NCBI RefSeq assembly: GCF_024448895.1
Contig: NZ_JAMOIC010000003.1
Location: 1-64,000 of the forward strand
Length of the DNA: 64,000 bases
Direction: 5' to 3'
Source of the DNA: Stutzerimonas stutzeri
Lineage (GTDB): Bacteria; Pseudomonadota; Gammaproteobacteria; Pseudomonadales; Pseudomonadaceae
A program made the translations under genes and the position numbers. The notes under the pieces were generated by a model, which saw only the letters and a program-made list of their open reading frames with translations, did not search any database and had not been told where the DNA came from. Numbering within the stretch: position 1 is the first letter of the stretch; each line of letters opens with the position of its first letter. Shown here piece after piece: positions 3,047 through 6,976 of this stretch.

Positions 3047-3865
3047 ATGCAACTCGACGATCTGTTTGCCAACCTTCATCAGCTTCCCAACGTACCCAAG
3101 GTCGCCCAGGACCTGATCCTGCAATTCGATAATCCCAACACGTCCGTCGAGTCCGTGGCGCGCAACATTGCCTGCGATCCGGTGATCTCTGCCCGGGTGC
3201 TGCGCCTGGCGAACTCGGCTCGTTTTCGCGGTGCGCGCGAATCTACCAGCATTGAAGATGCGGCCCTGCGTCTGGGCTTCAATACCCTGCGAACACTGGT
3301 GCTGGCGTCTGCATTCACCTCAGCATTCAAATCGCACACCGATTTCAATCTCAAGGCGTTCTGGTACCACAGTTTCCTGGTAGCCAGCATCTGCAGGCTG
3401 CTGGCCAAGCGGGTGGGCGCTGATGTCGAAACGGCGTTCACATGCGGCATGTTGCATGACATCGGCGAACTGCTTATCCAAACCGGCGCGCCTCAGCTGG
3501 CTGATTGTCTCGGCGGCGGCGCAACCTCCGGCCCGACCCGTGCGGCCAACGAAACCCTGCAGTTGGGCTTTGGTTATCCGGAAGTAGGTGCTGAACTGGC
3601 GCGTCGCTGGCAGTTGCCACAGGTGCTGCAGGAAGCTATCGCGTACCAGGCTCGACCGTTGCAAGCACCCAACGGCAGCACGTTGCCGTATGTGATCGCG
3701 CAAAGCGTGGCGTTGACGCAGGCGCTTGAGGATCACGGCGGGGATATCGATTTGGCTCTTGAGTCCGTCAAGGGCCCGTTGACCGACAACATGGATCGAA
3801 ACGAGCTGCTAAAGTCGTTGCCGGGCGCCATCGAAACCGCGCGCACGTTCGTGGAAATGGTCTGA
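3047..3865 (+). CDS. HDOD domain protein
   Basis: A 272-residue cytoplasmic protein that is one HDOD domain nearly throughout. Family features seen are LPNVPKVAQDLI at the N-terminus, the block CDPVISARVLRLANSARF (about residues 45-62), IEDAALRLGFNTLRTLVL, and MLHDIGELL, which keeps an HD pair, although HDOD proteins usually lack the full metal site of true HD phosphohydrolases. Family members act in signalling, often with c-di-GMP or chemotaxis pathways, and have no proven common reaction. It stands alone, 261 bases before a binding protein / diguanylate cyclase cluster on the same strand. Confidence 0.88.
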   Translation: MQLDDLFANLHQLPNVPKVAQDLILQFDNPNTSVESVARNIACDPVISARVLRLANSARFRGARESTSIEDAALRLGFNTLRTLVLASAFTSAFKSHTDFNLKAFWYHSFLVASICRLLAKRVGADVETAFTCGMLHDIGELLIQTGAPQLADCLGGGATSGPTRAANETLQLGFGYPEVGAELARRWQLPQVLQEAIAYQARPLQAPNGSTLPYVIAQSVALTQALEDHGGDIDLALESVKGPLTDNMDRNELLKSLPGAIETARTFVEMV

Positions 3866-4126: not shown

Positions 4127-4897
4127 ATGAATCGACCCTCGTTCCGCCGTGTGACGCTTGCTCTCACTCTGATTGCAGGGCTGTTCTGTTTTCAGCCCGC
4201 CCAGGCGGCGAGCGGCGTTACGGTCGTTACCGAAGAACTCCCTCCATACAACATGACCGTCGACGGCAAGCTGACGGGTATGGGAACTGAGGTAGTGGAG
4301 GCGGTGCTGGCGGAGGTGGGCGAGGAGGCTCGCATACAATCGATGCCCTGGGCCCGCGCCTATGACATCGCGCTCAACTCGGAAAACGTCCTGATCTATT
4401 CCATCGCCCGTACCCCGCAGCGCGAAGCGTTGTTCAAGTGGGTCGGCGTCATCGCACCAACGCGCTGGTCACTGTTTTCGCTTCCCGGCACTCAGTTCGA
4501 CCTGAAAAGCCTAGACGACGCGCGTAAATATCAGATTGCTACCGTGAAAGAAGATGTTGGCGAGCAGTACCTGATCGATAAAGGCTTCGCCATCGGCCGT
4601 AACCTGCAGTCAAGCAACAAGTACGAGCACAACTACGAAAAGCTCAAGGCCGGACGTGTGGACCTTTGGATATCCAACGAGCTAAACGCCCACTATCTGG
4701 TGCGAGAAGCCAGCGGTAATCCAAAGGAGAATGCCGTTTCTCAGCTGAATCTGGACGATCTCGGTGGCGCCAACGGCCTGTGCATGGCCTTCAGCCGCAA
4801 CACCCCGGACGAAGTTGTCGAGCGCTTCCGCCAAGGGCTCGCCCGAGTGCGCGCCGACGGTCGATATGACGCCATCGCCGCCCGTTGGCTTAAATGA
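4127..4897 (+). CDS. Periplasmic solute-binding protein, SBP_bac_3-like (first copy)
   Basis: A 256-residue exported protein. The signal peptide runs through LALTLIAGLFCFQPAQA and is cut before ASGVTVVTEE. The mature part has the type-II periplasmic binding fold pattern of the amino-acid-binding SBP_bac_3 family: VTEELPPYNMTVDGKLTGMG, PWARAYDIAL, IARTPQREALFKWVG and the C-terminal RYDAIAARWLK. The ATG at 4127 lies behind an AGAGGT site and fits the signal peptide. Its stop overlaps the start of the diguanylate cyclase by four bases, so the two are translationally coupled. No permease or ATPase gene is near, which argues for sensing rather than transport. The ligand is unknown. It is paralogous to the gene at 6248. 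Confidence 0.85.
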   Translation: MNRPSFRRVTLALTLIAGLFCFQPAQAASGVTVVTEELPPYNMTVDGKLTGMGTEVVEAVLAEVGEEARIQSMPWARAYDIALNSENVLIYSIARTPQREALFKWVGVIAPTRWSLFSLPGTQFDLKSLDDARKYQIATVKEDVGEQYLIDKGFAIGRNLQSSNKYEHNYEKLKAGRVDLWISNELNAHYLVREASGNPKENAVSQLNLDDLGGANGLCMAFSRNTPDEVVERFRQGLARVRADGRYDAIAARWLK

Positions 4898-6237
4898 ACG
4901 CCAGCATTCCGAACGCCGTAGTCGCCACAACGCAGCGCCGCCAGACCGGCTCGCTAGGCCGCCGGCTGGTGCTTGCCACGTTGGGCTTCTGCCTGCTGTT
5001 CACCCTGGCGAGCGCCGGCTTGCGCACCTGGTTGGCCTGGCACGACAGCCTCAAGGCCATGAATGCCGAACTGGTGCTGATCGATCAGGTGTTCCAGAAC
5101 AACCTGGCCAAGGCCATCTGGGAAATGGACAGCGATGCCCTGGAAACCCAGCTCGACAGCGTGGCCAGCGCAGCGCCGGTAGGCCGGGTGGAATTGCAGA
5201 TCATCCGAGCCGGACGTGCGCCGGAGGTCATTGAGCGTCAACGGGCGCAGCAGCAGGCCCAGCACCGTGCGCCCGTGTTGCAGCATCCTCTGACGTACGA
5301 AGCCTACGCGGGCGCCCGGGAAACAGTGGGCCATCTCAGGCTGGACGGTCACGAAGGGCTGCTTTGGGAGCGCCTCGTCGATGAAATCACCGAAATAGTC
5401 ATCACTCAGGTCATTCAATCGCTTCTGCTGGCCGGGCTTATCATGTGGATGTTCAACAGCACCGTGACCCTGCACGTTCGGCGAATCGCCCGGCACCTCA
5501 CCGCGCTGGCGCCAGAGAATCTCGACCAGACCCTGCGCCTTGGCCGATCTGTGAAGCGGCGTGACGAGCTGAGCCTGTTGGAGTCCGGCGTCAACAGCTT
5601 GCAGGCGAAGCTCTCCGCCTATCTCGAGCGACAGCATCAGGACGAACTGGCCCTGGCTGCTCACCGCGATCGCCTGGCCGAACTGGTGGAAGAGCGCACC
5701 ACCGAGTTGCGCGCGGCCAACGTGTTGCTGGAAGAACTGTCACGCAGCGACCCGCTCACTGGGTTGGCCAACCGCCGCCACTTCGACGAGATCAAGGAAG
5801 TCGAATTCCGTCGCGCGCTGCGCCTCGGCCAGCCGCTGACGGTGCTGATGTGCGATGTGGATTTCTTCAAGCGTTACAACGATCACTACGGCCATGCCCA
5901 GGGTGACGCATGCCTGAAGGCGGTCGCCGATACGCTCAAGAGCGTGTTCGCACGCGCGGGCGAGGTGGTTGCTCGGCTTGGCGGCGAGGAGTTCGTCGTG
6001 CTGCTGCCGGGCGTCGATGCCGAGTCCGCTCACCGCTCAGCCGTGCGTCTGCAACAACGGCTGGCCGAGCGTGAAGTCCCGCACGAGGCCTCGGCCGTCT
6101 CGCCCTACGTCACGCTGAGTGTCGGGCTGAGCGGGTTCGATCCCGAGACCGTGGATCAATTCGACCAACTGTTGCGACGTGCGGATGAAGCCCTTTATCG
6201 GGCCAAAACGCAGGGCCGCAATTGCATTTCCGACTAG
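4894..6237 (+). CDS. Membrane diguanylate cyclase with periplasmic sensor region
   Basis: A 447-residue inner-membrane protein that should make c-di-GMP from two GTP. Layout: TM1 at about 24-48, a periplasmic region of about 120 residues, TM2 at about 170-190, a HAMP-like and coiled-coil linker (about 190-280), then a GGDEF domain from about 285. The active site reads GGEEF (363-367), with SDPLTGLANRRHFDEI and MCDVDFFKRYNDHYGH upstream, so catalysis is expected. At the position of the inhibitory RxxD site there is RAGE (354-357), so product inhibition may be weak. It is sandwiched between two related periplasmic binding proteins, which probably present a ligand to its periplasmic region. Confidence 0.93.
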   Translation: MNASIPNAVVATTQRRQTGSLGRRLVLATLGFCLLFTLASAGLRTWLAWHDSLKAMNAELVLIDQVFQNNLAKAIWEMDSDALETQLDSVASAAPVGRVELQIIRAGRAPEVIERQRAQQQAQHRAPVLQHPLTYEAYAGARETVGHLRLDGHEGLLWERLVDEITEIVITQVIQSLLLAGLIMWMFNSTVTLHVRRIARHLTALAPENLDQTLRLGRSVKRRDELSLLESGVNSLQAKLSAYLERQHQDELALAAHRDRLAELVEERTTELRAANVLLEELSRSDPLTGLANRRHFDEIKEVEFRRALRLGQPLTVLMCDVDFFKRYNDHYGHAQGDACLKAVADTLKSVFARAGEVVARLGGEEFVVLLPGVDAESAHRSAVRLQQRLAEREVPHEASAVSPYVTLSVGLSGFDPETVDQFDQLLRRADEALYRAKTQGRNCISD

Positions 6238-6247
6238 CGAGGATCGA

Positions 6248-6976
6248 ATGATGCACCCGATTGCCTGGATCGCTTTCCCCCTCGTTTTGCTCGGCACGGT
6301 GGCGCATGCCGATCCGGTTCGGGTAGTGACCGAAGAGACCGCCTACAGCTATCTCCATGACGGCAAGGTCGGTGGCCCGGCGACCGAAGTGGTCGAGGCG
6401 ACCTTGCAACGCGCGGGGCTGGATGGCTATCAGATCGGCATGTACCCCTGGGCTCGCGCTTATGACATGGCGCTGCAGGAGCCCGGCGTGCTGGTGTATC
6501 TCATCGCGCGCACGTCTGAGCGCGAAGCGCTGTTTCGCTGGGTCGGTGAGATTCTGCGCATCGACTATCACTTCTACAAACTTCGCGAGCGGGACGATAT
6601 CCAGGTCGCCGATCTGGAGTCTGCAAAAGCCTATCGGATCGGCGTGTTGCGCGACGATGTGCGACATCAATATCTGGAGGCCAACGGCTTCTCCAAGATA
6701 GTGGTGACGGCGCACAACAGTGACAACTTCAAGCGGCTGCTCAACGGCCAGGTCGATCTCGTGCCCATGCCTGAACGCGACATCCTCGCGCTGTGCAAAG
6801 AGGCGGGCCTTGATCCTGGGGAAGTCCAGCGTGTTTTCACGCCAAACACATCAACGCAGCTGTACATGGCCTATAACCGGCAGACCGAAGACGAGATCGT
6901 ACTGCGCACCCAGGCCGCCTTCGAGCGGCTGCGGGACGAAGGTGTGGTCACACGCATCATGGCAGGGCACCGCTAA
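6248..6976 (+). CDS. Periplasmic solute-binding protein, SBP_bac_3-like (second copy)
   Basis: A 242-residue exported protein with signal peptide MMHPIAWIAFPLVLLGTVAHA, cut before DPVRVVTEE. It shares with the protein at 4127 the segments VVTEE, EVVEA, PWARAYD, IART, REALF and WVG, so the two are paralogues although the C-terminal halves differ clearly. The ATG at 6248 follows GAGGA and begins 11 bases after the cyclase stop; an open frame upstream lies inside the cyclase gene and lacks a signal peptide. The three genes read as one operon. Loss of the tyrosine- and proline-rich PPYN stretch (here AYSY) suggests a different ligand from the first copy. Confidence 0.85.
   Translation: MMHPIAWIAFPLVLLGTVAHADPVRVVTEETAYSYLHDGKVGGPATEVVEATLQRAGLDGYQIGMYPWARAYDMALQEPGVLVYLIARTSEREALFRWVGEILRIDYHFYKLRERDDIQVADLESAKAYRIGVLRDDVRHQYLEANGFSKIVVTAHNSDNFKRLLNGQVDLVPMPERDILALCKEAGLDPGEVQRVFTPNTSTQLYMAYNRQTEDEIVLRTQAAFERLRDEGVVTRIMAGHR

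Follow-up and report, generated by a model that had tools for sequence, protein, structure and literature searches.

Several bacterial systems are known in which a periplasmic solute-binding protein (SBP), or a binding domain of that kind, acts on an enzyme of cyclic di-GMP (c-di-GMP) metabolism. In the NspS-MbaA system (Vibrio cholerae, Sinorhizobium meliloti), a PotD-like SBP with polyamine ligands is paired with a GGDEF-EAL enzyme (PMC9993111), and in the ScrA-ScrB-ScrC system of Vibrio parahaemolyticus, a periplasmic ligand-binding protein switches a c-di-GMP enzyme encoded in the same operon (PMC10269520). In CdgH of Vibrio cholerae, a single GGDEF cyclase bears two periplasmic binding domains that differ in the ligands they prefer (PMC5431781), while RmcA is the studied case of SBP_bac_3 in c-di-GMP networks (review, PMC8846402). 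Here we describe a stretch of 64,000 nucleotides from Stutzerimonas stutzeri (contig NZ_JAMOIC010000003.1, positions 1 to 64,000; hereafter the window), in which three consecutive genes at 4127-6976 code for an SBP (SBP1), a membrane diguanylate cyclase with GGDEF domain, and a second SBP (SBP2). We consider it probable that these genes constitute a signalling cassette, in which SBP1 and SBP2 are receptors docking on the one cyclase, and two inputs set a single c-di-GMP output. In this way, one switch would probably inform the cell about two chemicals in its surroundings. Control by a single SBP (NspS/MbaA, ScrB/ScrC) and a fused two-domain input (CdgH) are already known, and the new element would be the use of two separate SBPs for one cyclase. 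An earlier interpretation of this DNA from its letters only (the sequence-only reading) could name no precedent for this layout, and none was found in the available parts of the open-licence literature, a scope from which most subscription papers and bioRxiv preprints fall out. The outside signal has been established for few c-di-GMP enzymes, and a compact, conserved cassette with two soluble receptors offers a tractable case for the combination of two signals before the membrane.

The three genes lie on the (+) strand as the compact unit that the sequence-only reading had recognized. The gene for SBP1 (256 amino acids; 4127-4897) overlaps the start of the cyclase gene (447 amino acids; 4894-6237) by four bases, and the gene for SBP2 (242 amino acids; 6248-6976) follows after a gap of 10 bases, counted to the first ATG at 6248, instead of the 11 first reported. 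None of the three frames is continuous with another: each begins at a start of its own and codes for a hydrophobic N-terminus, and both SBPs are predicted to be exported. The binding domains are not fused to the cyclase and in this respect the locus differs from CdgH, in which both domains belong to the cyclase polypeptide; in addition, the cyclase of the window has a CHASE5-like periplasmic domain of its own. CdgH resembles the locus in that its single GGDEF cyclase receives input from two binding domains that prefer different ligands, as is proposed for the two SBPs here. The NspS/MbaA precedent named by the sequence-only reading is apt, in that a periplasmic binding protein gene lies just upstream of, and overlaps, the gene for a c-di-GMP enzyme that sits in the membrane and has a periplasmic domain, but that system has a single PotD-like SBP and a GGDEF-EAL enzyme, whereas here there are two SBPs, both SBP_bac_3-like, and the enzyme has GGDEF only; for the two inputs, CdgH is the closer case. 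The ScrABC operon likewise pairs a periplasmic binding protein with a c-di-GMP enzyme, but includes one binding protein together with a signal synthase, and ScrC both makes and breaks c-di-GMP.

The cyclase matches the Pfam GGDEF family (PF00990; E 7.9e-50, 169.2 bits) over residues 285-443 (5746-6222), and the signature GGEEF (G363 G364 E365 E366 F367) is intact and invariant in 18 sequences. No Pfam match to an EAL domain was obtained in the cyclase. The description of this protein as a membrane GGDEF protein with a periplasmic region holds: two hydrophobic stretches are located near residues 20-48 and 161-195, and in the model, which as a whole has a pTM of 0.41, the domain between them (approximately residues 48-160; 5035-5373) begins with a long and a short helix, continues with four strands and closes with another long helix. 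A weak HAMP-like linker is indicated at residues 195-241 (5476-5616; E 0.034, below the Pfam cut-off). Structural search with the full model hardly probed the periplasmic domain, the span covered by at least a fifth of the matches being 238-447, and no structural relative was assigned to the domain; two matches reach beyond the GGDEF half (8wcn_B from residue 24 and 5xgb from 97), but with rmsd of 15-19. The PDB search by sequence with the sensor profile gave a single match with E 0.69. Diguanylate cyclases have a canonical RxxD inhibitory site, which is not needed for activity; at what we take to be its position, the cyclase has R354-A-G-E357 (5953-5964) instead of RxxD, with all four residues invariant in 18 rows, and product inhibition may be altered.

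The sequence-only reading had proposed a comparison of gene order among relatives, and the order proved to be kept. When a cyclase of this type was defined as a match of E<=2e-99, it was found in 61 of 398 Pseudomonadaceae genomes belonging to four genera, the 61 loci being 28 (L268-L295), 16 (L296-L311) and 15 (L077-L096) in addition to the window and L020. The order SBP1-cyclase-SBP2 on one strand was present at 60 of these loci, and SBP2 is beside the cyclase at all 61. In the exception (G288), the cyclase and SBP2 stay together and an SBP1-type gene, 69% identical to an SBP1 orthologue versus 41% to the best SBP2, stands alone about 180 kb away. Loss of SBP1 in the lineage of L094 and L095 was ruled out by tblastn, which detects SBP1 there. 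In a second collection, of genome contigs, which partly overlaps the Pseudomonadaceae set and includes Pseudomonas records and one Aquabacterium, all of the 30 loci have the same order. Of the 37 genomes sampled from the genus, 18 carry the cyclase sensor region, all with SBP1 upstream and SBP2 downstream; the best SBP match in the 19 genomes lacking the cyclase has an E value of at least 2.7e-75, versus at most 1e-108 in the carriers (Fisher 6e-11). Among the 369 genomes of the class sample, no cyclase of this type was found besides that of the window, the next best match having E 8.9e-30. With this conservation, the three-gene arrangement is far beyond chance.

SBP_bac_3 proteins commonly work with transporters, and the two SBPs might serve an ABC transporter encoded elsewhere, the place beside the cyclase reflecting co-expression only. 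The surroundings of the cassette were examined in this respect with 72 neighbouring open reading frames (ORFs) from 19 loci, which were chosen by length and may include false ORFs. Neither ABC ATPase motifs (Walker A plus signature) nor the permease EAA motif was detected among these 72 ORFs, and no transporter family is included in the 25 displayed out of 65 Pfam families of neighbours; the absence of a nearby permease or ATPase, as stated in the sequence-only reading, is thus borne out for the neighbours, the search having covered these and not the rest of the genome. The neighbouring ORFs fell into 61 clusters, the largest with three members. Because flanking ORFs are hardly shared between loci, the cassette appears to be complete with these three genes, and no fourth gene stands out. 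Adjacency is no proof of interaction in a published case (PMC11113362), but the conserved order and the co-occurrence of the SBPs with the cyclase speak against a transporter function, which we regard as very improbable. Conserved genetic linkage with no transporter motifs nearby is the pattern of an SBP-regulated c-di-GMP enzyme.

Independent support for the control of the cyclase by SBPs comes from the relatives of its sensor domain. A profile of the sensor region detected distant proteins, of which all six that were scanned match Pfam CHASE5 strongly (3.9e-18 to 6.9e-25), and hhalign of this profile against ten distant homologues taken together, of which eight have a CHASE5 match, gave 99.6% probability with E 3.6e-24. 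Judging from these profile comparisons, the periplasmic domain of the cyclase is a divergent relative of CHASE5. A total of 37 loci of distant sensor homologues were then analysed, 30 from the 36 class-sample matches outside the window's genome (six being unread for the count) and seven from another search. An SBP_bac_3-like gene is located directly upstream on the same strand in 25 of these 37 loci (L159 included), or in 22 when the first SBP profile, trained on three of the counted SBPs, was replaced by a stricter one trained without CHASE5-linked SBPs. As a control within the window's own genome, 37 GGDEF stretches, representing about 40 of the 42 GGDEF matches by position, were examined, and an SBP gene adjoins the GGDEF gene in none of them, with the same result for unfiltered ORFs; one stretch (L194) holds a non-adjacent SBP gene. 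Among the loci retrieved with PF17149, a set that overlaps the distant homologues, the upstream same-strand SBP gene is present in 14 of 17 over the CHASE5 cut-off (11 of 17 with the stricter profile) and in none of four below it. For CHASE8, another sensor domain of signalling proteins, loci were obtained for 30 of 40 matches (24 of the 30 over the CHASE8 cut-off), and no upstream same-strand SBP gene was found at any of the 30 with either profile; the difference between 14/17 and 0/30 is significant (Fisher 2e-9). Canonical CHASE5 proteins (E about 1e-26) occur in four more of the 398 Pseudomonadaceae genomes, each with an SBP gene upstream. The outputs of the distant proteins vary: by motif, 15 of the 37 are histidine-kinase-like and three have a GGDEF motif, and by Pfam, three of six are kinases and three have GGDEF and EAL matches.

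Because CHASE5 genes usually follow an SBP gene, the simplest reading suggested by these counts is that CHASE5-type domains dock SBPs, and since the sensor domain of the cyclase is related to CHASE5, this linkage lends weight to SBP control in the present case too. The CHASE5 sensor proteins share with the cyclase a related periplasmic domain and an SBP gene immediately upstream, but differ in having one SBP, in outputs that include histidine kinases, and in scoring above the Pfam CHASE5 cut-off. With this linkage, a sensor domain that is still little understood acquires a testable role, and partners can be predicted for many kinases and cyclases. A wider proposal, which we hold more tentatively and at somewhat less than even chance, is that the cassette is a split two-input receptor, with paralogous SBPs of different ligands on one cyclase dimer, and that throughout Gammaproteobacteria CHASE5 serves specifically for the docking of SBP_bac_3 proteins; if so, the presence of CHASE5 would predict SBP-controlled kinases and cyclases. 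The CHASE5-SBP linkage was not found in the available parts of the open-licence literature, where the spelling 'CHASE 5' escapes a query for 'CHASE5'. As a separate observation, one long frame in a distant locus (L123, 775-3042) includes an SBP match and the second half of a sensor match, and perhaps represents an SBP fused to its receptor.

The two binding proteins are homologous but not equally typical. SBP1 matches Pfam SBP_bac_3 (PF00497) with E 8.3e-12 and 45.4 bits (cut-off 26.4), whereas SBP2 matches no Pfam family at E<=1 and stays below the SBP_bac_3 cut-off. The view of SBP1 and SBP2 as two SBP_bac_3-type paralogues stands, however, by homology (37% identity over 227 residues) and by fold: the predicted structure of SBP2 (pLDDT 88.7) matches periplasmic-binding-protein folds, best 3h7m, a histidine-kinase sensor domain (E 1e-15). 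The SBP profile finds a GGDEF-protein structure, 5gzs (E 0.0007), which is presumably CdgH. A total of 17 orthologues of SBP1 (58-91% identical) and 18 of SBP2 (54-84%) were collected. On a tree of 79 SBP sequences, in which long branches were flagged and deeper joins are unsure, the 19 SBP1 rows form one clade (98/77) and the 21 SBP2 rows another (95/100). Local duplication as the source of the pair was not upheld, an SBP of the window's own genome (L045) sharing their weakly supported group, and neither was their membership in the clade of other CHASE5-linked SBPs, of which 22 of 25 (24 counted plus L164) form a clade of their own. A further SBP homologue of the same genome (L044, C5 near 242800) is apparently split over two frames. 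After the first strand, SBP1 has a PPY motif (P39, P40, Y41) that is invariant in 18 rows and missing from SBP2, while R92 and E29 of SBP2 are invariant in 19 sequences.

For comparison of the ligand pockets, five SBP1 and five SBP2 rows were aligned to the arginine-binding ancestor AncQR, with its ligand contacts as given in PMC5431781. Glutamate E17, arginine R83 and the aromatic F58 site (as Trp) are kept in all 10 rows, but aspartate D167, which holds the ligand alpha-amino group, is replaced by N in all five SBP1 rows and by P or S in all five SBP2 rows; beyond the five compared, other SBP1 rows have I at this position. The T78 position is A in nine of the 10 rows. Since the two proteins form separate clades and carry different residues at one pocket position, their ligands likely differ. 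It is plausible that these SBPs take a carboxylate ligand other than a plain alpha-amino acid, or bind in an unusual, CdgH-like mode. The same losses would also fit a purely structural role, in which SBP2, or SBP1, no longer binds a ligand and belongs constitutively to the receptor complex as a subunit; we consider this very unlikely, as the carboxylate-type arginine, the Trp and the glutamate are all retained, and PBPb-I of CdgH also lacks the aspartate contact and still binds arginine (PMC5431781).

The favoured signalling cassette would operate as follows. SBP1 and SBP2 would be soluble periplasmic receptors, not transporter subunits, and the docking site of both would be on the periplasmic part of a homodimeric membrane cyclase, its divergent CHASE5-like domain. 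Loading with ligand would change the docked state of the SBPs, and the resulting movement would pass through the second transmembrane helix, the HAMP-like linker and a coiled coil, changing the activity of the GGDEF domain. The two chemical inputs would thereby be integrated into one c-di-GMP output, and may be combined in an AND, OR or antagonist gate, as the sequence-only reading suggested. The observations on which this scheme is built are the gene order, the conservation of the unit, the two SBP clades, the intact catalytic motif, the purifying selection (see below) and the CHASE5-SBP linkage.

Several observations weigh against this scheme. The periplasmic region of the cyclase scores 13.0 bits (E 0.1) with Pfam CHASE5 itself (PF17149), below the cut-off of 27. 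Among the 37 distant homologues, 12 lack a directly upstream SBP gene on the same strand, although in one of them (L164) the SBP gene is on the opposite strand and in L123 the SBP match is within the same long frame. The control of the cyclase by SBPs, as claimed in the sequence-only reading, is favoured by the conserved order and the CHASE5-SBP linkage, but the published case of Pseudomonas aeruginosa warns that adjacency need not mean interaction: neither AgtS nor AruS, the latter equipped with a CHASE 5 sensor domain, was seen to bind the SBPs encoded nearby, AruS having been tested by two-hybrid only (PMC11113362). Broken frames are also encountered. SBP1 reads as two frames in some strains (genome labels G001 and G267; locus label L029), its copies at L056, L059, L268 and L270 read as two frames or have a stop, the cyclase of G270 has an in-frame stop, and that of L048 is in two frames. 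These were noticed in passing, not by a locus-by-locus check, and in a few strains the cassette may be in decay, or its sequence misread.

The last point concerns the docking of SBP2. In comparisons with four relatives, dN/dS was 0.05-0.09 (SBP1), 0.06-0.13 (cyclase) and 0.11-0.17 (SBP2), and purifying selection acts on all three genes. The cassettes of Stutzerimonas stutzeri 28a22 and NT0128 (L049, L051) are mosaics with a join near cyclase residue 290: SBP1 and the sensor half look like those of the window's clade, matching the window at 86-89% and 84-86%, whereas the GGDEF half and SBP2 are closer to L066/L069 (83-85% and 73-76%) than to the window (72-73% and 64%). The mosaic has the form expected after recombination and, as judged from these identities, shows that SBP2 was swapped without the sensor domain. 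This weakens strict matching of SBP2 with the sensor, and tight coevolution of the two seems not to be needed; the mosaic is compatible with a docking face of some tolerance, and also with an SBP2 that has no docking site on the sensor domain. In an alternative to the cassette of two receptors, SBP1 alone is the signalling receptor, as in the single-SBP CHASE5 systems, and SBP2 is an antagonist, decoy or scavenger competing for the ligand or the docking face. The separate swap of SBP2 agrees with such a division of roles, as do the position of SBP1 in the upstream place of the single SBPs in CHASE5 loci, its PPY motif and Pfam recognition, neither of which SBP2 has, and its slower evolution. 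SBP2 is, however, present at every one of the 61 loci and under purifying selection, with R92 and E29 invariant, and we judge the alternative unlikely compared with the cassette of two docking receptors.

With respect to the surroundings of the cassette, the Pfam-named neighbours in the window are HDOD, DUF2147 and AsmA. The HDOD gene (3047-3865) has the same orientation as SBP1 and lies upstream of it at a distance of 261 bases, and its homologue is beside the cassette in one of 30 loci (L048), indicating that it is probably outside the cassette. In one genus (g27; L077-L079 and L094-L096), the cyclase is longer, with about 590-690 residues, and carries an extra segment of about 150-200 residues before the GGDEF domain. 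Of two such inserts tested, that of L079 is weakly GAF-like and that of L096 is not, and the insert may add a cytosolic input to the cyclase.

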